DNA of 47,044 nucleotides, from NCBI GenBank assembly GCA_903872565.1, contig CAIQLG010000130.1, positions 1 to 47,044 of the forward strand, written 5' to 3'. Each line of letters starts with the position of its first letter. The stretch's first letter is position 1. Below, piece by piece: positions 2-35,105 of the stretch. Under the pieces are notes generated by a model. The model saw only the letters and a program-made list of their open reading frames with translations, searched no databases and was not told the origin of the DNA. Both the position numbers and the translations under genes were made by a program. The stretch comes from an uncultured Lentisphaerota bacterium. Lineage in GTDB: Bacteria > Verrucomicrobiota > Lentisphaeria > Victivallales > GWF2-50-93.

Positions 2-3000
2 ATACAGACTGCCGCAAAGCTCGAACATACAAACATTGTTACCGCATTCGATGCCGGAGTTGACGGCAAAATTTATTATCTCGCGATGTCATACGTTGAC
101 GGCGTTCTTCTCGACGACCTCCTTACTATTGACAAGAGAATTCCGGAAAAGGAGGCGCTCCGGATTGTCAGATGCATCGCCGATGCGCTCAACTATTCCT
201 GGAATGACTTCCAGATGCTTCACCGTGACATCAAACCTGCGAACATAATGCTCGACAACAAAAAGATCCCCAAGCTGATGGACATGGGAATATCAAAAAG
301 TCTTTCCGAGGAAAAGGGTCTCACAATGACCGGCATGATAGTTGGCACTCCTTATTACATGAGCCCGGAGCAGGCGCAGGCCGATGCCGGCATAGACTGC
401 CGCGCCGACATATATTCCCTGGGCGCAACACTCTATCACCTGGTCACCGGGGAAGTTCCCTACGATGCCACTACGTCCATGGCAATCCTCATGAAGCACA
501 TGGCGGAACCGTTTCCCCCGCCGCAGGACAAGAATCCGGAACTATCCGATGCATGCGCCGTGCTCCTCGAAGTCATGATGGCGAAACGCCCGGAAAACCG
601 GCCGGCAGACTGGGCCGCCACGATAGAGGACATTGATCTCGTTCTTGCGGGAAAGTTCCCGAAGACCAAGCGTCCCGCCGCTGGTGCGTCCCTCGTGATG
701 CAAATGCCTGACAACCAAGCTCTGAGCCGCAGAAAAGTTTTCAAACAACCACCAAAAGCAAAACTTACACATAAAGGGCAGAAGGCGGGAGGCGGGGATC
801 AGAGGGCAGACGGCAGAAGACAGACAACAGATGGCGGAACAAAAAATAAGTCGAAGACTTTGCTTATCGCTGGGGTCGCGGCAGTTCTCGTGATTGCCGT
901 AATTATCGGGGGTGTCGTGATAAATAATTCAAAGAATGCTGCCGCCGAAAAAGTCCGCATCGAGCAGGTGGCAAAACAAAAGGCTGATGACGACAAACGC
1001 AAAATCGCGGAAGCCGCCCAAAAGGCTGAACTGGAAAAACAGAAGGCGATGGAAAGTGCCGCGAAAACCGAGAAGTACCAGCAGGAACTCTGGGATGCCG
1101 CAGCGAAAATCGCAACCCAGGCTCTTGCGGACAAGTCAAACTTTGAGACGGCCATCGCAAGCCTCGAAAAAATCAAAACAAGTTGCAAAGGCACGAAATT
1201 CGAGATCATGGCAGACACCGAAATTGCGAAACTCGCAAAGGCCAAGAAAGATGTTGATGAGGAGAAACGCCTTGCCGCTGAGACTGCAAAGAAGGTGGAG
1301 GATACTGTAGATCCTGAAAAAGAACACGCTAAAGACGTGAACACCAACGAAAAAGACACGACTGAAGACGTGAACAATGGTGAACCCGTAAGAATCGCCG
1401 TTCCATCGGGTGACGCTGTGAAGGCCGCGAGAACTGCGCTTCGTGCAACCTTCAAGGACGAGTTCTCCAAGAAGAAGGATGAGGACAAACTGGTGTTCTC
1501 CAAGAGCATGCGCGAGATGGCGGCCACCGAGAAAGACACTGTCCAGAAATACGCGCTGTTTGTGGAAGCCATAGCGCTGGCCACCGATGCCGGGAATACG
1601 GACGAGGCCTTTGCCACCGTCACGGAAATGTGTGTCGTCTTCGATGCCGTGTCGTCGAAGGAGAAAGGACTTGTTCTTGCAAATTTCGCAAAAAAAGCGA
1701 CAAAGCCGGATGATTTCAAAAATCTGCTTGACAGGTATCTTACCGTTGTCAATGAGGCGATGGGGGACTCCGATCCTGTTGCCGCATCAGACCTGCTGAA
1801 GGACTGCAAACCTCTCGCCGCCAAGGCGAAGGACAAGGGTTTATCAAATAGTCTTACCGAGAAGGCGAAAGAGATTGCCGCCTTGGCCTCGGAGATAAAA
1901 AAACTCAAACCATCTATGGACAAACTCAAGGAATCACCCGATGATGCGGAGGCCAACCTTGTCGTCGGGCGTTATGAGTGTTTCGTTAGAGGCGACTGGG
2001 AAAAGGGCTTGCCTATGCTTGCAAAGTGTTCCGACGAAATAGTGAAGGCAGCCGTAAAACTTGAATCCGGGACATCCGAGCCCGAGCAGATTGTCAAAGC
2101 CGCAGATGCGTGGTGGACCATCGCCGACAAGGAGAAGGCACCTGCTGCGAAAGTCGCAATGAAGGCACATGCCTCCGATCTCTACGGGAAGGCGATGGCC
2201 AATCTCACCGGCATCGCCAAGGCGACTGCGGAAAAGCGCATTGCGCAGTCAGCCTCCGAAGCCGAGGCGTCCGGGATTAAACTGAGATCAAAACAAGGCG
2301 GCGACTATTTGATCGTTGACTTGTCAAGCCGCAAGCTTACATTTTCGGACGGCGTCCCATCAGATCTGCTTACGAATGACAGCTTCAAGACAGACAAGCT
2401 GGTCATGCGGAGAATTCCTGCTGGTGAATTCATGATGGGCGAAACCAATAATTCGCACAAGGTGACCTTGACAAAGGACTTCTATATTGGAGTCTTCGAG
2501 GTTACACAGGGACAGTGGGAGAAGGTCATGAAGAGCAATCCGAGCAAATTCAAAGATGTGGGAAAAGGCGCTCCTGTTGAGGGTATATCGTGGGACGACG
2601 CTCAAGATTTCATAAAAAAACTGAATGGAAAGTCTTCGTCTCTCGCATTTCGTCTTCCGACCGAGGCCGAATGGGAATATGCCTGCCGAGGGGGCGACAA
2701 TACTTTGAAAGGTTTTGAGTATAGCGGGTCGGGTACACTCGATGAGGTGGCCTGGTTCAAGGACAACAGCGGAGGCAAGACACATCCGGTTGGCAAGAAA
2801 AAGCCCAATGAGAGGGGAATCTATGACATGAGTGGCAATGTCTGGGAATGCTGCTCTGACTGGTTTGGAGACTATCACAAGGAGTCTGAAAAGGATCCTA
2901 TGGGGGCAAAATCTGGCTCGGCACGCGTTCAGCGCGGTGGCGGCTGGAACAACGATGCCGGAAACTGCCGTTCGGCAAACCGTGACAAGGGTCCCCCATC

Positions 3001-3523
3001 ATCCCGGGACTGCAGTGTCGGCTTCCGTATCGTCCTTCCCGACCTTGCGGGGCTCGACAAGACCAAGGCGGAGAAGAGAGTAAAGGAAATATCTGTGGAA
3101 AAGCATACAGATAGTATTATAATTACAGCTTATAACACCAATGAAACATTGCCTAAGGAGAAATTCCTTCAGGGTTATTTTGTGCAGGATCTGTTCTGCG
3201 GTATACCTGGAACCTATTCGTATGATTTTAAGATGGAAAAAGGTGGAATGTTCTATCTTCATGCTTATTTTGCTTCTGATGAGACGAGACCTGCCACATT
3301 ATTTATAAACAACAATGATTCTGGATTGATTTTATCAGAGGTTACTGGCGGATGGAATACGGAACAACTTAAATGGTTTGTTTATGGTCCATATAAATTC
3401 AAAAGCGGCAAGAACACGATTGCTTTGAAATTCCCCAGTATCCCATCGGTCAGAGGATTTTACATATCTCCTTCAAAGGAAACACCATCCCACGTTGAGT
3501 TCCCTAAAAACAAATACAAATGA
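2..3523 (+). CDS. Ser/Thr protein kinase fused to an FGE-like (sulfatase-modifying factor) domain, 5' partial
   Basis: The reading frame is open to the left edge, so the true start and the N-lobe (glycine loop, catalytic lysine) lie outside the window. The visible part starts in the alpha-C region (KLEHTNIV). It contains the catalytic loop HRDIKPANIM, a DMG variant of the DFG motif, and GTPYYMSPEQ in the activation segment. One membrane helix lies at bases 856-930, followed by a Lys/Ala/Glu-rich coiled-coil-like region. From about base 2395 there is a formylglycine-generating-enzyme-like domain (RRIPAGEFMMG, LPTEAEWEYACRGG, MSGNVWE, GGGWNN, VGFRIV). The last ~150 residues are a beta-rich module I cannot name. 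The family is typical of PVC bacteria: a cytoplasmic kinase anchored to the membrane with an external FGE-like domain. Function is inferred to be signalling; whether the FGE part is catalytic is not shown. Tandem Lys/Asp-rich linker sequence includes a mobile-type repeat (1317-1349). Confidence 0.9.
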   Translation: MQTAAKLEHTNIVTAFDAGVDGKIYYLAMSYVDGVLLDDLLTIDKRIPEKEALRIVRCIADALNYSWNDFQMLHRDIKPANIMLDNKKIPKLMDMGISKSLSEEKGLTMTGMIVGTPYYMSPEQAQADAGIDCRADIYSLGATLYHLVTGEVPYDATTSMAILMKHMAEPFPPPQDKNPELSDACAVLLEVMMAKRPENRPADWAATIEDIDLVLAGKFPKTKRPAAGASLVMQMPDNQALSRRKVFKQPPKAKLTHKGQKAGGGDQRADGRRQTTDGGTKNKSKTLLIAGVAAVLVIAVIIGGVVINNSKNAAAEKVRIEQVAKQKADDDKRKIAEAAQKAELEKQKAMESAAKTEKYQQELWDAAAKIATQALADKSNFETAIASLEKIKTSCKGTKFEIMADTEIAKLAKAKKDVDEEKRLAAETAKKVEDTVDPEKEHAKDVNTNEKDTTEDVNNGEPVRIAVPSGDAVKAARTALRATFKDEFSKKKDEDKLVFSKSMREMAATEKDTVQKYALFVEAIALATDAGNTDEAFATVTEMCVVFDAVSSKEKGLVLANFAKKATKPDDFKNLLDRYLTVVNEAMGDSDPVAASDLLKDCKPLAAKAKDKGLSNSLTEKAKEIAALASEIKKLKPSMDKLKESPDDAEANLVVGRYECFVRGDWEKGLPMLAKCSDEIVKAAVKLESGTSEPEQIVKAADAWWTIADKEKAPAAKVAMKAHASDLYGKAMANLTGIAKATAEKRIAQSASEAEASGIKLRSKQGGDYLIVDLSSRKLTFSDGVPSDLLTNDSFKTDKLVMRRIPAGEFMMGETNNSHKVTLTKDFYIGVFEVTQGQWEKVMKSNPSKFKDVGKGAPVEGISWDDAQDFIKKLNGKSSSLAFRLPTEAEWEYACRGGDNTLKGFEYSGSGTLDEVAWFKDNSGGKTHPVGKKKPNERGIYDMSGNVWECCSDWFGDYHKESEKDPMGAKSGSARVQRGGGWNNDAGNCRSANRDKGPPSSRDCSVGFRIVLPDLAGLDKTKAEKRVKEISVEKHTDSIIITAYNTNETLPKEKFLQGYFVQDLFCGIPGTYSYDFKMEKGGMFYLHAYFASDETRPATLFINNNDSGLILSEVTGGWNTEQLKWFVYGPYKFKSGKNTIALKFPSIPSVRGFYISPSKETPSHVEFPKNKYK
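1317..1349 (+). repeat. REP-like repeat copy inside the kinase linker
   Basis: A 33-base stretch containing GAACACGCTAAAGACGTGAA differs at only two positions from an intergenic element at 17315-17347. The core can form a short hairpin (cacgct/gacgtg region). Here it is translated in frame as part of the low-complexity linker, so an intergenic palindromic repeat seems to have been domesticated as coding sequence. Confidence 0.6.
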
Positions 3524-6780: not shown

Positions 6781-8118
6781 TCACCATACATGTGACGATG
6801 TATAAAAACTGTGTACTATTCTTGGTTGGGGCAATGGATACTTCCTTAAATACCTATTATATTTTTCCCAGCTCATCTTCTTTTTCTGGCTTCGTCTGTT
6901 GAGCCATTTCCTGGCCAGCATTACCGTTATTTTGCAAAACTTCCTCACGTGTTGGAAGTTTTCGCTCACCCCGTAATACTGTATATGACCCCGCAGTTTG
7001 GCCTGAAGCGTCTTCCACCATTCCTTTGTCAGAACTTTGTTTCTGACCGCCTTCAGCCATTCGTTCATCTCTACGCATTTGTTCGTGAACTTCTTACGGC
7101 TGGTCTTCCGACCCACCTTGAACTTTCCACGTATTGATGTTGCACAGAAATGAGTAAAACCCAGAAAATCAAATGTGTTTGGCTTGCGATTTTGCTTATC
7201 CGCATTCTCTTTTTCGTAGCGTCCGAAGCTGATCTTCCGGCTCTTTTCGGGATGTATTTCTAGTCCGTATCTATTAAACCTCTTTTTCAGGACTTCTTCA
7301 ATACGTTTCGCGTCTCCCGCATATTGCACTACGCAGATAAAATCATCTGCGTAGCGTATCAATTCGCAGAATCCATCCGTATGCGTCTTCACCTCTTTCT
7401 CAAACCAAACATCAAGAACGTAGTGGAGGAAAATATTTGACAGCATCGGACTAAGAATTGACCCCTGATGGGTTCCATTTTCAGTCCCTATCAACATGCC
7501 ATCGTCAATGTAACCGGCCTTGAGGAATCTGCCAAGCAGTTCCAGCAACGCCGTGTCCCTTATCCTTATGCGGATAAAGTCCAGGAGTTCATGATGAGGA
7601 ACGTTGTCGAAGAATCCTTTTATGTCGGCTTCCACGATATGGTTCACCGGCTTGAACATTATCATATCATTCAGTGCTTTTAGCGCCTGATGACAGTTCC
7701 GTTCAGGTCGGAAGCCATATGAGCAGTTCAGAAAATCCTGTTCGTAAATACTTTCCAGTATCCACGTGATTCCCCGTTCCACTATTTTGTTCTCCAGCGC
7801 AGGGATACCCAGTGGCCGCTTTTCAGTCTCATTCTTGGGAATGTAAACCCTCTTTGCGGGCATCGGCTTATAGCTCCTGCGTCTGATTCTCGACACCAGT
7901 TCTTCGAGGTTCTTTTCTAGATTTACTCCGTAATCCTCCCAGCTTACTTCGTCAATTCCTACAGCCTTATTCCTGTTCAGGCTATTGTAGCAATCCCGCA
8001 TAAATTCGACATTCAGCAAGTGTATTAGACTTGTGAACTGAAAGCCGTGATCTCTGCGGGCATGATCGGATATGAGAGACAGCTTTGCCCATGTTTTACC
8101 AATTTCAGTGTCTGGCAT
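6781..8118 (-). CDS. ltrA: Group II intron reverse transcriptase/maturase
   Basis: 445 residues from the ATG at 8118, chosen over an upstream TTG because GGAG at 8127-8130 lies 8 bases before it. RT motifs are present in order: NKAVGIDEVSWEDY, YIPKNETEKRPLGIPALENK, YGFRPERNCHQAL, VEADIKGFFDNVPH, THQGSILSPMLSNIFLH and the catalytic RYADDFICV. After the fingers/palm there is a maturase (X) domain with NTFDFLGFTHF and a C-terminal basic tail. No H-N-H endonuclease motif is visible, as in endonuclease-minus introns. It promotes intron splicing and retrotransposition. All catalytic residues are intact, so it may be active. Confidence 0.95.
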   Translation of the reverse strand: MPDTEIGKTWAKLSLISDHARRDHGFQFTSLIHLLNVEFMRDCYNSLNRNKAVGIDEVSWEDYGVNLEKNLEELVSRIRRRSYKPMPAKRVYIPKNETEKRPLGIPALENKIVERGITWILESIYEQDFLNCSYGFRPERNCHQALKALNDMIMFKPVNHIVEADIKGFFDNVPHHELLDFIRIRIRDTALLELLGRFLKAGYIDDGMLIGTENGTHQGSILSPMLSNIFLHYVLDVWFEKEVKTHTDGFCELIRYADDFICVVQYAGDAKRIEEVLKKRFNRYGLEIHPEKSRKISFGRYEKENADKQNRKPNTFDFLGFTHFCATSIRGKFKVGRKTSRKKFTNKCVEMNEWLKAVRNKVLTKEWWKTLQAKLRGHIQYYGVSENFQHVRKFCKITVMLARKWLNRRSQKKKMSWEKYNRYLRKYPLPQPRIVHSFYTSSHVW

Positions 8119-8689
8119 GTTCAATTCTCCCTCTCTACGTTAAAACGCTGACCCCTTCGAGTGGATCTCCGACCCTCGCCAGGTATTACCCTGACTACGC
8201 CTCTAATACGAGTCAGTCCGACTGCCACGGCACCATACCCCCTCCCCGCCTTTTCGGCTTCTAGGGGGCTTCTATACGGAGCACCGCGGCTCTCCCAAGT
8301 TCCAATACAAACCGTTCGCTCACCCGCCACTGACTTAGACCCCGGCACGCCGGTTTCACACTCACCATATTTACGCGCGAACCGATACTGGCTTCCAGAA
8401 AATGAAACCCTTGACCCTATGCAACAAGGATAATTTCGGGGCTCGACACCTTCACGCTTTCGCATTGTGGCTGATGTCGCACCTTTCCCAAGGCTTCGCA
8501 TAATTCGTTGCCTCCTCATACGCTCGGGTTAGTTCCGGACTGGTGGTTAGCCTTTGTCCGTGTTGGATTGTCCAACTGATTTATATTAGCTGTGCTTGGC
8601 GCACTCATCAAACTCCTTATGATATATTTTCATTTAAATTTCACCATCAGTCCTCGTCCACAACGCCTGGCGGACAAATTATAACATGA

Positions 8690-23308: not shown

Positions 23309-25156
23309 TTACTTCTTGTCTATCGCGTGGAATTTGCAGGTTTCATAACAGACACCGCACTTTATGCATCTCGTCTGGTCTATGCTGTGTTTCTGCTTCC
23401 TTTCACCGGAAATGCACGATGCCGGGCAGTTCTTGGCACACATTGTGCAGCCCACGCATTTCTCATTGATGACAAATCTGAGAAGCTTCACGCAGACACC
23501 GGCCGGGCAGTGGTGATCCTTGATATGCATGAGATATTCGTCAAGGTAATTGTTCATCGTGGAGAGTACGGGATTCGGCGAAGTCTGGCCGAGCCCGCAG
23601 AGCGCCGTATCCTTGATCGTCTCGCAAAGCGTCTTCATCTTCGAAAGGATCGCGACATCGGCCCTGCCCTCGCTAATTTCCACGAGCATCTCGTGGAGCC
23701 TCTTGTTTCCGATCCTGCACGGAGTGCATCTTCCGCAGGACTCGTCAAGGGTGAACTCCAGGAAGAATTTGGCGATGTTAACCATGCAGTCGTCCTCATC
23801 CATTACGATCATTCCGCCAGAGCCCATCATGGAGCCGAGCGCTATCAGGGATTCATATTCTATCGGAGTCTCCAGTCTTTCGCTTGTAAGACACCCGCCG
23901 GAGGGACCGCCTGTCTGCACGGCCTTGAATTTTCTTCCCCCCTTGCATCCGCCACCAAGCGTGTAGATTATGTCGAAGAGCTTTATTCCCATCGGAACTT
24001 CTATCAGGCCGACCTTTGATATTTTTCCTGCAAGCGCGAAGACTTTCGTGCCCGGGCATTTTTCTGTTCCGATTTTCCTAAACCATTCTGCTCCGTTTCT
24101 TATTATCGCGCAAACGTTTGCGAAAGTCTCGACATTGTTCACCACCGTGGGTTTTTTCCAGAGCCCTGACACAGCCGGGAATGGAGGCTTGAAGTTTGGT
24201 TCGCCACGGAGCCCCTCGATGGAGTGGATTAGAGCTGTCTCTTCTCCGCACACAAATGCCCCGGCGCCATATTTGAGTTCTATGTCGAAATTAAATTGCG
24301 TCCCCAGGATTCCGTTGCCAAGCAGACCCAAATCCTTCGACTGCCCTATCGCAATAAGGAGCCTCTTGACAGCGAGAGGATATTCGGCGCGGACATAGAT
24401 CACGCCGTTGGTCGCACCTGTCGCATATCCGGCAATAGTCATGGCTTCGAGCACAGAATGCGGGTCTCCCTCGAGAACCGCACGATCCATGAAGGCGCCT
24501 GGGTCTCCTTCGTCTGCATTACAGATTATGTATTTGACATCGCTTTTCTGGGCTGCCGCAAAAGACCATTTTTTCCCGGTCGGAAATCCGCCGCCGCCGC
24601 GTCCGCGCAGACCGGAAGCCGTTATGACGTCAATTACATCCTTAGGCTTCATCGAGGACAGCACTTTTGAAAGTGCGGAATATCCGTCGCGCCGGACATA
24701 GTCATCCAGCTTCTCCGGATCGATTTTTCCGCAGTTTCTAAGCACAAGCTTGGCCTGCAATGTGCCTTCGGTGTATTCTTCGTCCTCCGGGAAGCACCAG
24801 GTGCTTTGAATCTTATCTACGCCGGCGACCTTGACTCCCTTGAGGACAATGGCTTCCGCATTTTCTGGCTTTACGTTTCCGAAAAACGAGGAAGCACCAG
24901 TGTCGCATTCCACCACCTCTATCGAGGGTTCGCTGTGGCACAGCCCCATGCATCCCGTCAAAACTATGCCAACCTTGTCCTGCAGATTTTTTGCCTTGAC
25001 TTCCCTTTCGATAGCCTCGAGGACGGGTGTCGTCCCGGCAGCTATCCCGCAAGTCCCCATCGAAACCAGGATTTGCCTCTCGTAAGTTTTGGTGTTGGAA
25101 TTTATCTTGGAACGGTACTCCTCGAGTTCACGCGGATTGTGTATTTTAACTGTCAT
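23309..25156 (-). CDS. NuoF/HndC-like NAD(P)H-binding flavoprotein subunit
   Basis: 615 residues with the extended HydB/HndC layout. An N-terminal thioredoxin-like [2Fe-2S] domain (GTCGIAAG, VLTGCMGLCH) is followed by the NuoF core, with GLRGRGGGGFPTGKKW (FMN/NADH), CNADEGDPGAFMDR, CGEETALI and CGRCTPCRIG ([4Fe-4S]). A C-terminal ferredoxin domain with two [4Fe-4S] motifs (CVGCTMCAKNCP, CIKCGVCYETCK) follows. In known relatives this subunit oxidises NAD(P)H and passes electrons to an [FeFe]-hydrogenase, formate dehydrogenase or similar partner, often with flavin-based bifurcation. The NuoE-like gene precedes it by 6 bases, but no HydA or other catalytic partner follows: the next gene is an ABC permease. 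A partner at another locus, or a link with the Ech operon 4 kb away, is inference. Confidence 0.93.
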   Translation of the reverse strand: MTVKIHNPRELEEYRSKINSNTKTYERQILVSMGTCGIAAGTTPVLEAIEREVKAKNLQDKVGIVLTGCMGLCHSEPSIEVVECDTGASSFFGNVKPENAEAIVLKGVKVAGVDKIQSTWCFPEDEEYTEGTLQAKLVLRNCGKIDPEKLDDYVRRDGYSALSKVLSSMKPKDVIDVITASGLRGRGGGGFPTGKKWSFAAAQKSDVKYIICNADEGDPGAFMDRAVLEGDPHSVLEAMTIAGYATGATNGVIYVRAEYPLAVKRLLIAIGQSKDLGLLGNGILGTQFNFDIELKYGAGAFVCGEETALIHSIEGLRGEPNFKPPFPAVSGLWKKPTVVNNVETFANVCAIIRNGAEWFRKIGTEKCPGTKVFALAGKISKVGLIEVPMGIKLFDIIYTLGGGCKGGRKFKAVQTGGPSGGCLTSERLETPIEYESLIALGSMMGSGGMIVMDEDDCMVNIAKFFLEFTLDESCGRCTPCRIGNKRLHEMLVEISEGRADVAILSKMKTLCETIKDTALCGLGQTSPNPVLSTMNNYLDEYLMHIKDHHCPAGVCVKLLRFVINEKCVGCTMCAKNCPASCISGERKQKHSIDQTRCIKCGVCYETCKFHAIDKK

Positions 25157-25162
25157 ATCTTT

Positions 25163-25705
25163 TTATTCCCCTATTTTTAAATCTTGGCAGTCCGCAAGAA
25201 TGTCAGGCACCATCTTTGTGGTGACATTTCCGTAGACCTTGTCGTTGACCATCACGACCGGGGCCAGACTGCATGCGCCCACGCATCTCAGGCATCCGAT
25301 GGAAAACTTCATGTCGCCGGTCGTCTCTCCCTCAGATATGTTCAAATATCTCTTGAACTCGCCGAGGATCTTGTCCGCTCCTTTGACAAAGCAAGCAGTG
25401 CCAGTACATACATTTATCACATATCTTCCCTTCGGAACGATAGTAAAAAATGTATAGAAACTGACCACGCCGTAAACCTCCGAGAGGTGCAGCTTTAGCT
25501 TGTCCGCCACAAAAAGCTGGAGTTCCTCCGGCAGATACCCGAAAATACCCTGCGCTTTGTGGAGGCATTGTATAAGAAAACCCCTGTTCCTGGACGAATT
25601 GTCCGTCAGTGGAAGTGACTCGATATATTTTTCCAGTTCAATTCTCTTGTCCGGAAACTTCTTCACTATCGATTCCGACTTACAAGATGTCGTTTCACAT
25701 TTCAT
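25163..25705 (-). CDS. NuoE/HndA-like [2Fe-2S] subunit
   Basis: 180 residues from the ATG at 25705, chosen over an upstream TTG because AAGGA lies 8 bases before it. It has a helical N-domain (FLIQCLHKAQGIFGYLP) and a thioredoxin-like ferredoxin fold. The four ligands of the [2Fe-2S] cluster are in CTGTACFVKG and GCLRCVGACSLAPV. It forms a unit with the NuoF-like protein downstream (6-base gap) and relays electrons from the flavin to further clusters. Confidence 0.94.
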   Translation of the reverse strand: MKCETTSCKSESIVKKFPDKRIELEKYIESLPLTDNSSRNRGFLIQCLHKAQGIFGYLPEELQLFVADKLKLHLSEVYGVVSFYTFFTIVPKGRYVINVCTGTACFVKGADKILGEFKRYLNISEGETTGDMKFSIGCLRCVGACSLAPVVMVNDKVYGNVTTKMVPDILADCQDLKIGE

Positions 25706-25839
25706 TGCCAATATCCTTGAAAAAAGAGATTAGAGGATCTTTCCCGAATTCAGAGAAGTTATTTCAGAACTCGCAAATATCAAATGGGAACTTTAAAAAA
25801 GATGCAGACTTAATTAGGATTCAGAGTTTGTGCAATCAC

Positions 25840-28394: not shown

Positions 28395-28952
28395 TTTTTC
28401 CTCATGGCATTTTATTTACTTAACCGACGGCACCGGAACTTTTTCGGAACGCCAGCAACTTGCTGGCATCTATCCCATATTGTCGGCAGAGTCACAAGAT
28501 CCCGGCCACGAAATGTGTCGGGATTGCAGGCGTTCCTTCGAAAAACACAATTTCCCATACGACCAAGTTCAATATCGCGAAAACAATGAATGGTTCTGCT
28601 TGTCAAAACCGACGATGGCTCCGACGAAGATCGCCCTCCACTGAAACACTTCAAGCAAAAATAAATTTGCAAACTATAGGTTTTCATTTGAATAAATTCA
28701 AATTGTGAATTTATTTTCCATGAAAAACTATAGATCAGCGCAGGATTGTCTATTCCGAGCGGAAACAAAAGTTTTTTCTTAAAAAAAATGGAATTCCATT
28801 TGAAATTTGAAAGGCCACTATTAAATTCGAAGTTTTGTTTCTGCAATGACTACATGTCTAGCACCCTCGGTCTTTTACTAAAGTTAAAGACGATGTTCGG
28901 TTGATGCTTTATTGCATTGTTTTATTGGCAATCTGTTCTTTTTGGAGCTCAA
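28395..28952. other. Gene-poor divergent intergenic region
   Basis: This 558-base gap separates the divergent esterase gene and the ech operon and should hold both promoters. No consensus -35/-10 pair stands out. A perfect 10-bp hairpin (AATAAATTCA / TGAATTTATT, 28691-28715) lies in its middle. A + strand frame up to 28644 has some protein character (DPGHEMCRDCRRSFEKHN) but starts inside the esterase gene's complement and has no ribosome site, so I do not call it. Confidence 0.4.
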
Positions 28953-30848
28953 GTGAATTTTATAGCTTTTCTGATATTATTTCCAATCCTGACAGGATTT
29001 CTGCTCCTCTTCACCGGGAGCGACAGGATAAGGAAGATTGTTGTCACGCTGGCATCTTTTCTGATTGCTGGCGTATCACTCTTGCTTCTGTCGATGCATT
29101 TCGCCAGTCCGATAAACTTCTTCAATCCCAGCCCGAAGAACGCCGACATTATAAACTGGATCATAATGGGGGGCGGAATATTTTTAGACATCTTCATCTT
29201 TTACATCACCATTAAATATCGTCGTTATCCTGCCCTGGCTCTCGCAATCGTGCAAACTGTAATATTTCTATATTTCGAGCACAAATATGCACATTCCATA
29301 GTTATCAGCAATTATTTCTTCCTTGACAAGTTTTCGATACTGATGGCGCTGATAGTCGGAGTGATCGGTTCTTTGATATGCCTTTATTCCCTCGACTACA
29401 TGAAGCAATTCCATCTGGACTTCAGGAAGGAAGTCCCCGACCAGAGGCGTCTCTTCTTCTTTCTCATGTTCTTGTTTCTTGGCGCGATGTTCGGTCTGGT
29501 TTTCTCGAACTGCCTAAACTGGATGTTTTTCTTCTGGGAGATAACGACACTGTGTTCCTTCCTCATGATCGGCTATAAGGGGAACAAGGAGTCCATAGAC
29601 AATTCGTTCAATGCGTTGACGATGAATCTCCTGGGTGGAGTCGCTTTCGCGGCCGGGATACTTATTCTGGCCAGGACTTCCGGACAAATCGAGGTCGACA
29701 AGATAATGCTCGGTGCAAAAGATGTCGCGATAATGCTTCCCGTTGCGCTAATCGCCTTTGCCGGGCTCACCAAGTCGGCACAGCTTCCTTTCTCGAGCTG
29801 GCTTCTCGGCGCCATGGTGGCGCCGACTCCGGTATCCGCCCTGCTCCACTCGAGCACAATGGTCAAGGCTGGCGTATACGTCATAGTGCGATTTTCGCAC
29901 GTTTTCGAGGGAACTGCCTGTGGTCTCACGCTTGCGATAATCGGCGGTCTCACATTTCTTCTCACCTCATTTGCGGCCGTTCCACAGGATGATTCCAAGA
30001 AGGTTCTCGCATACTCCACCATCGCCAATCTCGGGCTTGTCGTGCTATGCGCGGGAATCGGGACATCCCAGGCCATATGGGCGGCGATCATGCTCATCCT
30101 CTTCCATGCCGTCTCGAAATGCCTGCTCTTCCTGTGCGTCGGTACAGTCGAACACAGGATCCACAGCCGCAACATCGAACACATGGCGGGGTTAATTCTG
30201 AAAATGCCGAAACTCTCGATAATGATGCAGATAGGCATGGCTGGCATGTTTCTCGCGCCCTTCGGAATGCTGATAAGCAAATGGGCAGTTCTGAAGGCAA
30301 TGATAGACAATAACGCCGTACTCGCGGTATTCCTGGTCTTCGGGGGAGCCGCAACAATGCTTTTCTGGGTCAAGTGGATGGGAAAGCTGATAACAGTCGT
30401 CCGCGAATCGGAAAACATCGAGGGGAACGTCGGTCTAGACGAGCTTATTCCGCTTTATACGCTATCATTGCTCACTGTCGCGCTCTGCGCGTTCTTTCCG
30501 CTGGTGTCATCCTTTTTTGTCCAACCCTATCTCATCGAAGTATATGGACGCGCCTTCGAGATAAGCCGGGGCAACATAATAATAATGTGCATAATGCTTT
30601 CACTCGTATTTCTCTTCCCGCTTAGCTTTTTCAACTATGGCAGGAATGTCAAAGTCGTGGATGCCTATCTGTGCGGCGCCAACGCGGATCATCCGACAGA
30701 GTTCGTGGACTCGCACGGCCATGCGATCGATTTCAAGATGAGCAACTACTATCTGGTGCCATATTTCAAGGAAAAGATGCTCATGACGTTCGGCTCTGTT
30801 CTTTCTATCATCCTTATTGTCATAATGATAGGGGTCTCACTCCGATGA
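28953..30848 (+). CDS. echA: Ech-type hydrogenase subunit A (NuoL/MrpA-like ion pump)
   Basis: 631 residues from the GTG at 28953, chosen over a TTG at 28917 because GGAG (28944-28947) lies 5 bases upstream. Polytopic (about 16 helices). It has the conserved antiporter-type residues: glutamate in FFWEITTLCS, lysine in AGLTKSAQLPFSSWL, PVSALLHSSTMVKAGVYV, and HAVSKCLLFL. In Ech it moves H+ or Na+ across the membrane, driven by the hydrogenase reaction. It starts a run of six genes with overlaps or tiny gaps and overlaps echB by 4 bases (ATGA). Could be confused with HyfB or MbhH; the gene order identifies Ech. Confidence 0.92.
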   Translation: MNFIAFLILFPILTGFLLLFTGSDRIRKIVVTLASFLIAGVSLLLLSMHFASPINFFNPSPKNADIINWIIMGGGIFLDIFIFYITIKYRRYPALALAIVQTVIFLYFEHKYAHSIVISNYFFLDKFSILMALIVGVIGSLICLYSLDYMKQFHLDFRKEVPDQRRLFFFLMFLFLGAMFGLVFSNCLNWMFFFWEITTLCSFLMIGYKGNKESIDNSFNALTMNLLGGVAFAAGILILARTSGQIEVDKIMLGAKDVAIMLPVALIAFAGLTKSAQLPFSSWLLGAMVAPTPVSALLHSSTMVKAGVYVIVRFSHVFEGTACGLTLAIIGGLTFLLTSFAAVPQDDSKKVLAYSTIANLGLVVLCAGIGTSQAIWAAIMLILFHAVSKCLLFLCVGTVEHRIHSRNIEHMAGLILKMPKLSIMMQIGMAGMFLAPFGMLISKWAVLKAMIDNNAVLAVFLVFGGAATMLFWVKWMGKLITVVRESENIEGNVGLDELIPLYTLSLLTVALCAFFPLVSSFFVQPYLIEVYGRAFEISRGNIIIMCIMLSLVFLFPLSFFNYGRNVKVVDAYLCGANADHPTEFVDSHGHAIDFKMSNYYLVPYFKEKMLMTFGSVLSIILIVIMIGVSLR

Positions 30849-31705
30849 AAATTCTGGCTCTTCTCTCCTTCCTTGTTCTTGCTCCGCTGGTCGGGGGGCT
30901 CCTTTCAGGAGTTGACCGCATATTAAGCGCCAGACTGCAGGGACGGGTCGGACCGCCCCTTCTTCAGCCTTTCTACGATGTTCTGAAACTTTTCGAAAAG
31001 GAGAACATTGTAGTCCGGAGGTCACAGAACTTCTACATCTTCTTCTTTCTCATACTGACCGTATTCACCGGCTCGATATTCTTTATTGGCGGCGATCTGC
31101 TTCTTGTGATATTCGCGTTCACACTTGCAGACATATTTTTCGTGCTTGCCGGCTTCAAGGCGAGTTCGCCCTACAGCTCCATCGGCGCGAAGAGGGAGCT
31201 AATCCAGATGGTTTGCTACGAACCCGCAATCCTTCTTACCGCAATCGGGATGTACATGAGCGCCGGTACCTTCTCGGTCAGCGGTCTTTTCGGTACCACT
31301 GTTCCCATCGCCCTCTATCTTCCGGGAATTCTTTTCAGCTTCATCTACATTCTTGCGATAAAATTCAGGAAGTCCCCCTTCGATCTTTCGACTTCGCACC
31401 ACGGACACCAGGAAATCGTCAAGGGCATAACCACAGAGTTTTCCGGAAAATCCCTGGCCACAATCGAGATCACCCACTGGTACGAGAACATCATCGTCCT
31501 CGGAATGCTCTACCTTTTCTTCTCTTTCAATCCTATCCTGGCGATATGCGTTCTCGCACTACTGTACTTCCTGATGATTGTTCTGGACAATGTCTGCGCC
31601 CGTCTTAAATGGCAGTTCACTCTTGCAAGTTCCTGGGCGGTAGCGCTTGTCTTCGGTGTCGGCAACATCATCATTCTCGACTTCTTCAAGGGGGTAATGA
31701 AGTGA
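30845..31705 (+). CDS. echB: Ech-type hydrogenase subunit B (NuoH-like)
   Basis: 286 residues; the start is fixed by the ATGA overlap with echA, although the frame is open further upstream. About eight membrane helices. NuoH signatures: LQGRVGPPLLQPFYDVLKLF and KFRKSPFDLSTSHHGHQEIV (acidic/charged quinone-site-like loop, here part of the proton path). It anchors the soluble hydrogenase module to the membrane. It overlaps the GTG of echC by 4 bases. Confidence 0.94.
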   Translation: MKILALLSFLVLAPLVGGLLSGVDRILSARLQGRVGPPLLQPFYDVLKLFEKENIVVRRSQNFYIFFFLILTVFTGSIFFIGGDLLLVIFAFTLADIFFVLAGFKASSPYSSIGAKRELIQMVCYEPAILLTAIGMYMSAGTFSVSGLFGTTVPIALYLPGILFSFIYILAIKFRKSPFDLSTSHHGHQEIVKGITTEFSGKSLATIEITHWYENIIVLGMLYLFFSFNPILAICVLALLYFLMIVLDNVCARLKWQFTLASSWAVALVFGVGNIIILDFFKGVMK

Positions 31706-32622
31706 GCTTCCTCAAAAAATCTCCATGGGTGATGCATTATGACGGATCGAGCTGCAACGGATGCGACATCGAGGTGCTGGCCTGCCTGACGCCCGTGTAT
31801 GACATCGAGCGCTTCGGCATCATCAACACCGGCAATCCGAAACACGCCGACATACTTCTCATAACCGGATCGGTAAACGAGCAGAACAAAATCATAATCC
31901 AAAACCTATATTACCAGATGCCCGATCCGAAAGTCGTGGTCGCCATAGGTATTTGCGCATCATCCGGAGGAATATTCCGCGAATGCTATAATGTACTAGG
32001 GGGAATCGGCAAAATCATTCCCGTCGATGTCTATGTGCCCGGCTGTGCGGCACGCCCCGAAGCGATCATTGACGGCGTTGTCAAAGGTCTTGCCGTGCTT
32101 GAAGAGAAAAGGAACTCTCTGTTGAACATAAGACAGGGAGTGGGGGTCGAAGCTCTCGTCGTTGAAAAGGCGGAATCCGAAGATGCCGAGGCAATATTGC
32201 AACTACAGAAAAGCGCCTTCATGAGCGAAGCTGAACTTTGCTGCGACTTCAATATCGCCCCTCTGCGCCAGACTCTCGACGAACTCAAGGAGGATTTCGG
32301 GAAAAAAACCTTTCTCGTCGCGAAACTCGCAGGCACCCCGGTCGGTTCAGTAAGAGCTTTCTCCGAAGGCGACACCTGCTACATCCAAAGGCTTGTGGTC
32401 GATCCCTTGCGACAAAATCTCGGCATAGGGAAAAAACTGATGGCGGAAATGGAAGGGCGCTTCAAACAATGCCACACATTAGAGGTTCACACCACGGACA
32501 AAAGCAGGCGCAACATCTATTTCTACAAGAAACAAGGATATTCACAGGTCAAAACCGAAAAAATCTCCGATTCGGTAACTAGAATATTCCTTCAGAAAAA
32601 AAGGACTGTGAAAAATGACTGA
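31702..32622 (+). CDS. echC: Ech-type hydrogenase small subunit (EchC/NuoB) fused to a GNAT acetyltransferase domain
   Basis: 306 residues from a GTG overlapping the echB stop, with AAGGGGG about 7 bases upstream. Bases 31702-32115 encode a normal NuoB-like small subunit: YDGSSCNGCDIEVLA, AIGICASSGGIF and DVYVPGCAARPEAI supply the four Cys of the proximal [4Fe-4S] cluster. After a short linker, bases ~32150-32610 encode a GNAT domain: FLVAKLAGTPVGSVRAF, then the acetyl-CoA motif RLVVDPLRQNLGIGKKLM, and FYKKQGY near the end. EchC is normally about 150 residues, so the protein is twice the family length. The fusion is in frame with no stop between the parts. The acetyltransferase could modify another hydrogenase subunit or sense acetyl-CoA; both ideas are inference. 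Confidence 0.93.
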   Translation: MSFLKKSPWVMHYDGSSCNGCDIEVLACLTPVYDIERFGIINTGNPKHADILLITGSVNEQNKIIIQNLYYQMPDPKVVVAIGICASSGGIFRECYNVLGGIGKIIPVDVYVPGCAARPEAIIDGVVKGLAVLEEKRNSLLNIRQGVGVEALVVEKAESEDAEAILQLQKSAFMSEAELCCDFNIAPLRQTLDELKEDFGKKTFLVAKLAGTPVGSVRAFSEGDTCYIQRLVVDPLRQNLGIGKKLMAEMEGRFKQCHTLEVHTTDKSRRNIYFYKKQGYSQVKTEKISDSVTRIFLQKKRTVKND

Positions 32623-33013
32623 AATCCAGGAACTTAAGCCCATAGCCGTATCGGAACTGTGCACCGAAGTCAAAGAGATGCTCGGAGACGGCCAGCGTCT
32701 AGTTCAGATTTCCTGCACAAAGACACGAGGCATACTCGAGCTGAGCTACAGCTTCGACAAGAATGGCAAGTTTAAAAGCCTCCGACTCGAGGTGCCTCTT
32801 CAAAACGCCGAGCTCCCGAGCATAAGCGGCATCTATTTCTGCGCGTTCCTGTACGAAAACGAGATACACGATCTCTTCGGGGTAAAATTTGCAAATCTGG
32901 TGCTGGATTTCAAGGGCTCATTCTACAGGACTTCCATCCCGAGCGCATTCAACCTCCAGACAGACAAGCAAAATACCGACTTACTTACAAAAACGGATGA
33001 ATTGGAAAAATGA
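32615..33013 (+). CDS. echD: Ech-type hydrogenase subunit D (NuoC-like)
   Basis: 132 residues; AGGA lies about 10 bases upstream of the ATG and the gene overlaps echC by 8 bases. The signature YENEIHDLFGVKF corresponds to the NuoC motif E-x-x-x-(W/H)DLFG. It is a soluble subunit that bridges small and large subunits; it has no cofactor. The C-terminal ~25 residues are polar and may be disordered. Confidence 0.9.
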   Translation: MTEIQELKPIAVSELCTEVKEMLGDGQRLVQISCTKTRGILELSYSFDKNGKFKSLRLEVPLQNAELPSISGIYFCAFLYENEIHDLFGVKFANLVLDFKGSFYRTSIPSAFNLQTDKQNTDLLTKTDELEK

Positions 33014-33041
33014 ATAATAACTCTGTGAAACAAGGACATTT

Positions 33042-34118
33042 ATGCTGCGTTCAATAGTTCCATTCGGCCCACAGCACCCGGTACTTCCGGAACCCATACA
33101 TCTTGACCTTGTGCTCGAAGACGAGAAGGTCGTTGAAGCCATCCCGTCTGTCGGATTCGTACATCGGGGGCTCGAAAAACTCGTGGAAAAAAAGGATTAC
33201 AACGAGTATGTCTATGTCGCCGAAAGAATTTGTGGGATATGCAGTTTTATCCACGGGATGACATATTGCATGGCGGTCGAAGAAATTATGAAAGTCGAAA
33301 TTCCGCCGAAAGCGAAACACCTGAGAGTCATCTGGTCAGAGTTCTCGAGAATCCACAGTCATCTGCTATGGCTGGGGCTTATGGCGGACGCCTTCGGATT
33401 CGAGTCGCTCTTCATGCAATCCTGGCGGATCCGCGAAAAATTCCTCGACATCATCGAGGAAACCACAGGCGGAAGAGTCATCTTCGGGACAGCCAAGGTC
33501 GGCGGAGTAAGAAAGGACGTCTCTCGAGATAAAATGTCGGAAATCCTCCGCAAGATCGCAGATTATGAAAAAGACATGCATGATCTGGCCAATGTCTTTC
33601 TAAACGACGGCACCGTCAGGAACAGGTTGTGCGGGGTCGGGGTCATCACTAAGGATGAGGCATATAAGCTCGGCGCAGTCGGACCTACACTCCGTGCCAG
33701 TGGTGTTTGCTCCGACACACGAAAAATTGGCTATGCGTCATACAACGAACTGTCCTTCGAGCCGATCACAGAAAAAGACGGGGATTCATATTCCAGATGC
33801 AAGGTGAGAATCCGTGAACTATTTCAGTCTGCAGGACTTATCCGGGAAGCGGCCGGCAAACTCGCGGAAGGACCGATCGAAGTTCCTGTCAAGGGATTTC
33901 CCTCTGGAGAATTCTTCGCGCGCACCGAACAGCCACGCGGCGAGGTCATATACTACGCAAAAGCCAATGGAACAAAATTCCTCGAGCGCATGAGGGTGCG
34001 GACGCCCACATTCGCGAACATTCCAGCGCTTGTAAAGATGTTGCAGGGAGTCCAGCTCGCCGACGTCCCCGTCCTTGTCCTCACAATAGATCCATGCATA
34101 AGCTGTACGGAGAGGTGA
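33042..34118 (+). CDS. echE: Ech-type [NiFe] hydrogenase large subunit
   Basis: 358 residues; AAGG upstream of the ATG. Both nickel-binding motifs are intact: RICGICSFIH (L1) and DPCISCTER (L2) at the very C-terminus. This makes it a true hydrogenase, not a NuoD-like subunit, which lacks these Cys. GFVHRGLEKLVE and SRIHSHLLWLG are family motifs. Only Thr-Glu-Arg follows the last Cys, so there is no C-terminal peptide for a maturation protease; this is also known for some Ech/CooH-type enzymes. It catalyses reversible H2 formation with ferredoxin electrons. No hyp maturation genes lie in the window. Confidence 0.96.
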   Translation: MLRSIVPFGPQHPVLPEPIHLDLVLEDEKVVEAIPSVGFVHRGLEKLVEKKDYNEYVYVAERICGICSFIHGMTYCMAVEEIMKVEIPPKAKHLRVIWSEFSRIHSHLLWLGLMADAFGFESLFMQSWRIREKFLDIIEETTGGRVIFGTAKVGGVRKDVSRDKMSEILRKIADYEKDMHDLANVFLNDGTVRNRLCGVGVITKDEAYKLGAVGPTLRASGVCSDTRKIGYASYNELSFEPITEKDGDSYSRCKVRIRELFQSAGLIREAAGKLAEGPIEVPVKGFPSGEFFARTEQPRGEVIYYAKANGTKFLERMRVRTPTFANIPALVKMLQGVQLADVPVLVLTIDPCISCTER

Positions 34119-34122
34119 CAAA

Positions 34123-34476
34123 ATGGCCTTGTTCAATATGCTCGCAACGATATTCAAAAATCTTTTTTCGGGACCGGCCACGATCCGATACCCTTTCGTG
34201 CAGAAGCCAACATTCGAGGCGACCCGTGGCAGACTCGACATCGGCATTGCAGACTGCATTTTCTGTGGAATCTGCCAGAAAAAATGCCCCACACATGCAA
34301 TTTCCGTGGTGAAAACTGAAAAAAGTTGGACAGTTGATCGTTTTTCTTGCATAAGTTGTGGAGCCTGTGTAGAAGCCTGCCCTAAGAAATGCATCTGGCT
34401 TTCGCAGAAGCATGGTCAAGCACTTCTCTCCAGTGAAAAATCGAAGGCGCTGGAGAAATTCGTCCAGAACGCATGA
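34123..34476 (+). CDS. echF: Ech-type hydrogenase ferredoxin subunit F
   Basis: 117 residues, 4 bases after echE. Two [4Fe-4S] motifs, CIFCGICQKKCP and CISCGACVEACP, form a NuoI-like polyferredoxin that accepts electrons from reduced ferredoxin and passes them to EchC. It is the last gene of the operon; a polar tail follows the second cluster. Gene order A-B-C-D-E-F is the same as in Methanosarcina-type ech. Confidence 0.94.
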   Translation: MALFNMLATIFKNLFSGPATIRYPFVQKPTFEATRGRLDIGIADCIFCGICQKKCPTHAISVVKTEKSWTVDRFSCISCGACVEACPKKCIWLSQKHGQALLSSEKSKALEKFVQNA

Positions 34477-34727: not shown

Positions 34728-35105
34728 ATGGGAAACTTGATCTATGAACAGGAATCTTACGTGATTAGGAAAGCCATATTCGAGGTTTATCGCGAGATGG
34801 GGTGCGGATTTCTCGAGTCCGTATATCAGGAGTGTCTTGTCAAAGAATTGAATCTTTCAGGAATAGAGTTTGAGTCACAGACTCAACTGCACATCTCATA
34901 CAAGGGCGAACAACTTGAGCAAACTTATAAGCCTGACTTCATATGTTACGGCAAAATTATTATAGAAATCAAAGCTGTAAAAGAACTGACAGATGAACAC
35001 CGCGCACAGGTAATCAATTATCTCAAAGCAACAGGAATTAAACTCTCGTTTTTAGTCAATTTCGGGCATTATCCAAAAGTGGAAATCGAAAGACTCGTTC
35101 TATAA
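34728..35105 (+). CDS. GxxExxY family protein
   Basis: 125 residues, AAAGGAG 8 bases upstream of the ATG. The family motif is GFLESVYQECL (G-x-x-E-x-x-Y). The second half, YKPDFICYG then IIEIKAVKELTDEH, has a D…ExK pattern suggestive of a PD-(D/E)xK nuclease fold. The family (TIGR04256) is found as many paralogues per genome in PVC and Bacteroidetes-type bacteria and has no known role. Here it lies between two inverted-repeat elements of the same 'accacggaacacac' type, which suggests mobility or repeat-associated spread (inference). Confidence 0.9.
   Translation: MGNLIYEQESYVIRKAIFEVYREMGCGFLESVYQECLVKELNLSGIEFESQTQLHISYKGEQLEQTYKPDFICYGKIIIEIKAVKELTDEHRAQVINYLKATGIKLSFLVNFGHYPKVEIERLVL

Follow-up and report, generated by a model that had tools for sequence, protein, structure and literature searches.

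We describe a fusion of EchC, the small subunit of an Ech-type group 4 [NiFe] hydrogenase, to a GNAT acetyltransferase domain, encoded within an ech operon of the window (the whole stretch of 47,044 nucleotides analysed here) and present in eight genomes of one phylum, spread over five families, with the seven other proteins 49-65% identical to that of the window. Group 4 hydrogenases help decide electron disposal in fermenting microbes and acetyl-CoA is the branch point of acetate fermentation. A fusion conserved for so long strongly hints that two activities are functionally linked, and this one suggests that H2 evolution may be directly connected with the supply of acetyl-CoA. To our knowledge, no group 4 hydrogenase carries its own built-in regulator or modifying enzyme or is under acetyl-CoA-dependent control, and no title or abstract found in our literature searches on Ech and other group 4 hydrogenases, acetyltransferases and the phylum describes such a fusion.

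The operon (28917-34476) consists of six intact genes in the order echABCDEF, coding for two membrane and four soluble subunits (Table 1), with both CxxC NiFe ligand pairs present in EchE. By its predicted products it is an Ech-type group 4 [NiFe] hydrogenase with one varied subunit and no functional part lost. The start of echB was set by frame inspection to the ATG overlapping the echA stop, within a longer open frame (30671-31705). The GTG start of the fused gene overlaps the end of echB (31705), and echD begins (32615) inside its 3' end, both points falling within 31702-32622, which bears out the tight mid-operon overlaps of the preliminary description. In three fused operons, that of the window not among them, echA and echB are themselves joined in one frame (Proton_antipo_M plus NADHdh).

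Table 1 Features of the ech operon in the window, domains of the fused protein, and joined echA-echB genes of other fused operons.
Feature	Position	Strand	Basis or remark
echA-like, antiporter/NuoL-type membrane subunit, 643 aa	28917..30848	+	Proton_antipo_M, E 2e-57
echB-like, NuoH-type membrane subunit	30845..31705	+	NADHdh, E 1.5e-40
echC-GNAT fusion gene	31702..32622	+	306 aa, GTG start, TGA stop
EchC domain, residues 1-140	31702..32121	+	Oxidored_q6; MbhJ match, E 8e-44; invariant cysteine columns
Linker, residues about 141-149, not conserved	32122..32148	+	Alignment of eight fused proteins
GNAT domain, residues about 150-302	32149..32607	+	Acetyltransf_1, E 3e-14; acetyl-CoA loop R-Q-N-L-G-I-G; Tyr275
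echD, NuoC-like	32615..33013	+	Complex1_30kDa, E 1e-9
echE, [NiFe] large subunit	33042..34118	+	Complex1_49kDa, NiFeSe_Hases; motifs RICGIC and DPCISC
echF, two-[4Fe-4S] ferredoxin-like subunit	34123..34476	+	Fer4 models, NuoI/FHL-type models
Joined echA-echB (G020)	L133:4606-7557		
Joined echA-echB (G216)	L135:4192-7017		
Joined echA-echB (G199)	L134:1-1419		Cut

About 3 kb from the operon lies a pair of NuoE-like and NuoF-like genes (23309-25711, minus strand) for a 2Fe-2S thioredoxin-like protein and an FMN-binding subunit with a ferredoxin domain, an arrangement known from bifurcating hydrogenases; next to this pair we found no gene for a catalytic partner. Another contig of the source genome encodes a second [NiFe] hydrogenase. 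Immediately downstream of the ech operon is a gene for a small protein of the PD-(D/E)XK nuclease superfamily (PDDEXK_3; 34728-35105, plus strand), and the window further contains a gene for a reverse transcriptase (RVT_1, E 2e-30; 6781-8124, minus strand) and one for a large protein with protein kinase and FGE-sulfatase-like domains, cut by the window start (2-3523, plus strand).

Translation of the fused gene gives 306 codons plus a stop without a single internal stop, and both domains are recognised in it by Pfam above the curated cut-offs, Oxidored_q6 at residues 18-128 (E 7e-30) and Acetyltransf_1 at residues 188-280 (E 3e-14), the latter being one of three GNAT models (PF00583, PF13508 and PF13673) that all exceed their cut-offs within residues 188-291. 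The EchC half is complete and of NuoB type, with all four predicted cluster cysteines (C18, C21, C85 and C115) in place and invariant in a 29-row EchC alignment. The preliminary description, which had proposed one uninterrupted frame holding four NuoB-type cysteines and an R-Q-N-L-G-I-G acetyl-CoA loop, was therefore right on each of these points, down to the exact sequence of an intact loop. In a structure prediction the EchC half was well modelled, and the GNAT half, modelled without relatives, stayed below usable confidence. We also considered production of two separate proteins through an internal start: there is an AGGA with an in-frame TTG at 32122, but across the other fused genes we saw no conserved start of this kind with a ribosome-binding sequence, and the idea was discarded.

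The closest further fusion was found within the window's own family (eight genomes) in G002, at 65% identity over 302 residues, and in four of the eight family members the EchC-like protein is of ordinary length. Within the class (198 genomes), G022 and G020 carry the fusion at about 55% identity, and 388 sampled genomes of the phylum added three full-length matches (G199, G216 and G402) as well as G263, at 49% identity, whose GNAT half contains an insert. That insert (L137 / L127) comprises 24 residues after the second helix and is accompanied by a C-terminal tail. Altogether, 8 of the 40 genomes with a strong EchC match in the phylum sample have the fusion, so that the same two-domain order, for which the preliminary description had suggested looking in other ech operons, does recur in seven further genomes; its statement that EchC is normally a single-domain protein held in all other lineages examined. 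For the phyla of a clostridial (399 genomes) and a methanogen relative (197 genomes), matches covered the EchC half and little beyond, with no GNAT fusion, and that of a Pseudodesulfovibrio relative (247 genomes) gave no match above the strict threshold used; these searches covered samples and best matches, by which absence elsewhere is not proven. No plasmid record covered 80% of the fusion, and no relatives of the GNAT domain were met on viral contigs.

The source assembly is a draft of 606 contigs, which might have allowed an assembly or frameshift artefact to join two genes. We give this reading a negligible chance, because seven other assemblies carry the fusion with a continuous frame across the junction, among them G263, a single contig of 5,957,605 bases, and all eight fused operons fall into one clade when judged by the other operon genes. 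Thus, on comparison of the assemblies, the fusion is not an assembly error. The clade is seen (support 98/94) in a tree of EchB and EchE, from which EchC was left out altogether along with one long-branch row, and which includes 36 operons with an ordinary EchC. It was obtained again (97/94, and in 97% of bootstrap trees) with EchB, EchC and EchE without the GNAT columns, and in these operon trees no ordinary, split EchC falls within the fused clade. Because the eight fused operons form one clade at 98/94, the fusion probably arose once and was then kept, and repeated independent fusions need not be invoked. EchC by itself is too short for its tree to distinguish between a single and a repeated fusion. 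The branching of the GNAT halves broadly matches that of the operons, and the grouping of the fused GNATs apart from standalone relatives has a support of just 31/69. Since other genomes of the window's own family have a different, unfused Ech lineage, the distribution in the phylum, as seen in these genomes, is patchy through loss or transfer.

Sequence conservation differs between the two halves. For G199 and G216, the closest pair, we obtained a dN/dS of about 0.10 in the GNAT half versus 0.035 in EchC, and we estimate from this pair that the GNAT half is under purifying selection that is clear but weaker than that on EchC; values for more distant pairs were saturated and not used. Leaving the closest pair aside, the fused proteins share 35-55% pairwise identity in their GNAT halves versus 70-84% in EchC. 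The acetyl-CoA loop of the window protein, RQNLGIG, matches the GNAT pattern R/Q-x-x-G-x-G/A; its first glycine, G241, is invariant in all eight, and the last loop position is G or A. Invariant polar residues of the GNAT half are E176, E178, Q190, R218, E261, S268, R270 and N271, of which R270 occurs in all fused forms and never in standalone relatives, and Glu178 in some standalone relatives only. Aligned with RimI, the N-acetyltransferase of ribosomal protein S18, Tyr275 falls on Tyr115, and an equivalent of Glu103 is not in register. The window protein looks catalytically competent by its residues. One conventional catalytic mechanism across all eight fused proteins is doubtful, because Tyr275, kept in six of them including that of the window, is replaced by Phe in G020 and by Leu in G263.

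Against family models, the GNAT domain scores best with YpeA, RimI and other generic GNATs, and none of these matches reaches its family cut-off (for RimI, 28.7 bits with the fusion protein and 30.7 with the GNAT part versus a cut-off of 86.4), and by these scores its kinship to known GNATs is at superfamily level only. Family models, solved structures and the gene surroundings of standalone relatives gave no specific answer as to the acceptor. A related GNAT domain forms the C-terminal part of a nucleoside-phosphorylase-like protein of the phosphorylase superfamily (PNP_UDP_1) in a Lachnospiraceae genome (G457, L158:685-1875), its GNAT part looking cut short; by this example, the subfamily can join unrelated proteins.

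For the function of the fusion we tentatively favour a hydrogenase-tethered acetyltransferase that would modify a protein partner near the complex, a reading that we hold at somewhat below even and rank above a passenger enzyme, which in turn we place above a non-catalytic sensor or structural module; we infer this whole order from the data above. The GNAT domain, attached to the C-terminal helix of the electron-transferring subunit EchC, would hang from the cytosolic arm of the complex, bind acetyl-CoA there, and acetylate a nearby protein, which may be an Ech subunit, the donor ferredoxin or a docking enzyme, and H2 evolution or partner docking would thereby respond to the acetyl-CoA level. 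This is supported by the recurrence of the fusion in eight genomes as a single clade, the dN/dS of the GNAT half, the invariant G241 and polar residues, and the alignment of Tyr275; moreover, a role tied to the hydrogenase would be expected because the domain has stayed in a single position of a single complex through deep divergence. Counted against it are that no acceptor is predicted, that two of eight members lost Tyr275, that a related GNAT sits on a nucleoside-phosphorylase-like protein, that many relatives of the same family run Ech without a GNAT, and that divergence is much faster in the GNAT half than in EchC.

The domain could instead be a passenger enzyme that acts on a free small molecule, such as an amine or amino acid, its fusion to EchC providing no more than co-expression or an anchor. 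In favour of this, standalone relatives lie in unrelated gene surroundings, the nearest named relatives are generic GNATs that include small-molecule enzymes, and the domain on the nucleoside-phosphorylase-like protein points the same way. Yet one fusion to the same subunit, held in five families with no split found inside the clade, and the invariant, fused-specific R270 argue otherwise, and we consider a passenger unlikely, if a serious contender. Slightly less probable still is that the domain alters or only stabilises the complex without acetyl transfer, as a non-catalytic acetyl-CoA sensor or a structural module. Such a module would fit a loop glycine retained in all eight proteins together with a putative catalytic Tyr missing from two of them, and also the existence of acetyl-CoA-dependent GNAT regulators such as PanZ/PanM, to which some fused proteins show weak profile matches; against it stand the Tyr kept in the other six, the window protein included, and the conserved polar residues, which suggest an acceptor site. 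The broader proposal is a built-in acetyl-CoA-dependent regulator, in which the EchC-attached GNAT would tie H2 evolution to the acetyl-CoA/acetate status, either through acetylation of the complex or of its ferredoxin or through sensing of acetyl-CoA. It takes up the candidate roles put forward in the preliminary description and comes nearest to an even chance in our estimation.

Compared with known systems, the window operon resembles Ech-type group 4 [NiFe] hydrogenases (EchABCDEF) in gene order, in its six subunits and in the cluster and NiFe cysteine motifs, but its EchC has a C-terminal GNAT domain, whereas the non-fused relatives examined have a single-domain EchC. Among solved structures, MbhJ of the Pyrococcus membrane-bound hydrogenase (6cfw_J) is closest to the EchC half (match over residues 2-133), and it likewise has no GNAT domain. 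Formate hydrogenlyase subunit 7 (HycG, 7z0s_G) is a homologous small subunit (E 2e-36) with a chain of 255 residues, which indicates that group 4 complexes can accommodate a C-terminal extension, although that of HycG is not a GNAT, and extended-type relatives carry an unrelated C-terminal stretch. With generic GNATs such as YpeA and RimI, the fused protein shares the common GNAT domain, the acetyl-CoA loop and the RimI Tyr position, but it falls below the curated family cut-offs. PanZ/PanM, a GNAT that senses acetyl-CoA and controls aspartate decarboxylase, provides a precedent for an acetyl-CoA-sensing GNAT regulator, although it is not fused, acts on another target and resembles some of the fused proteins at the level of weak profile matches.
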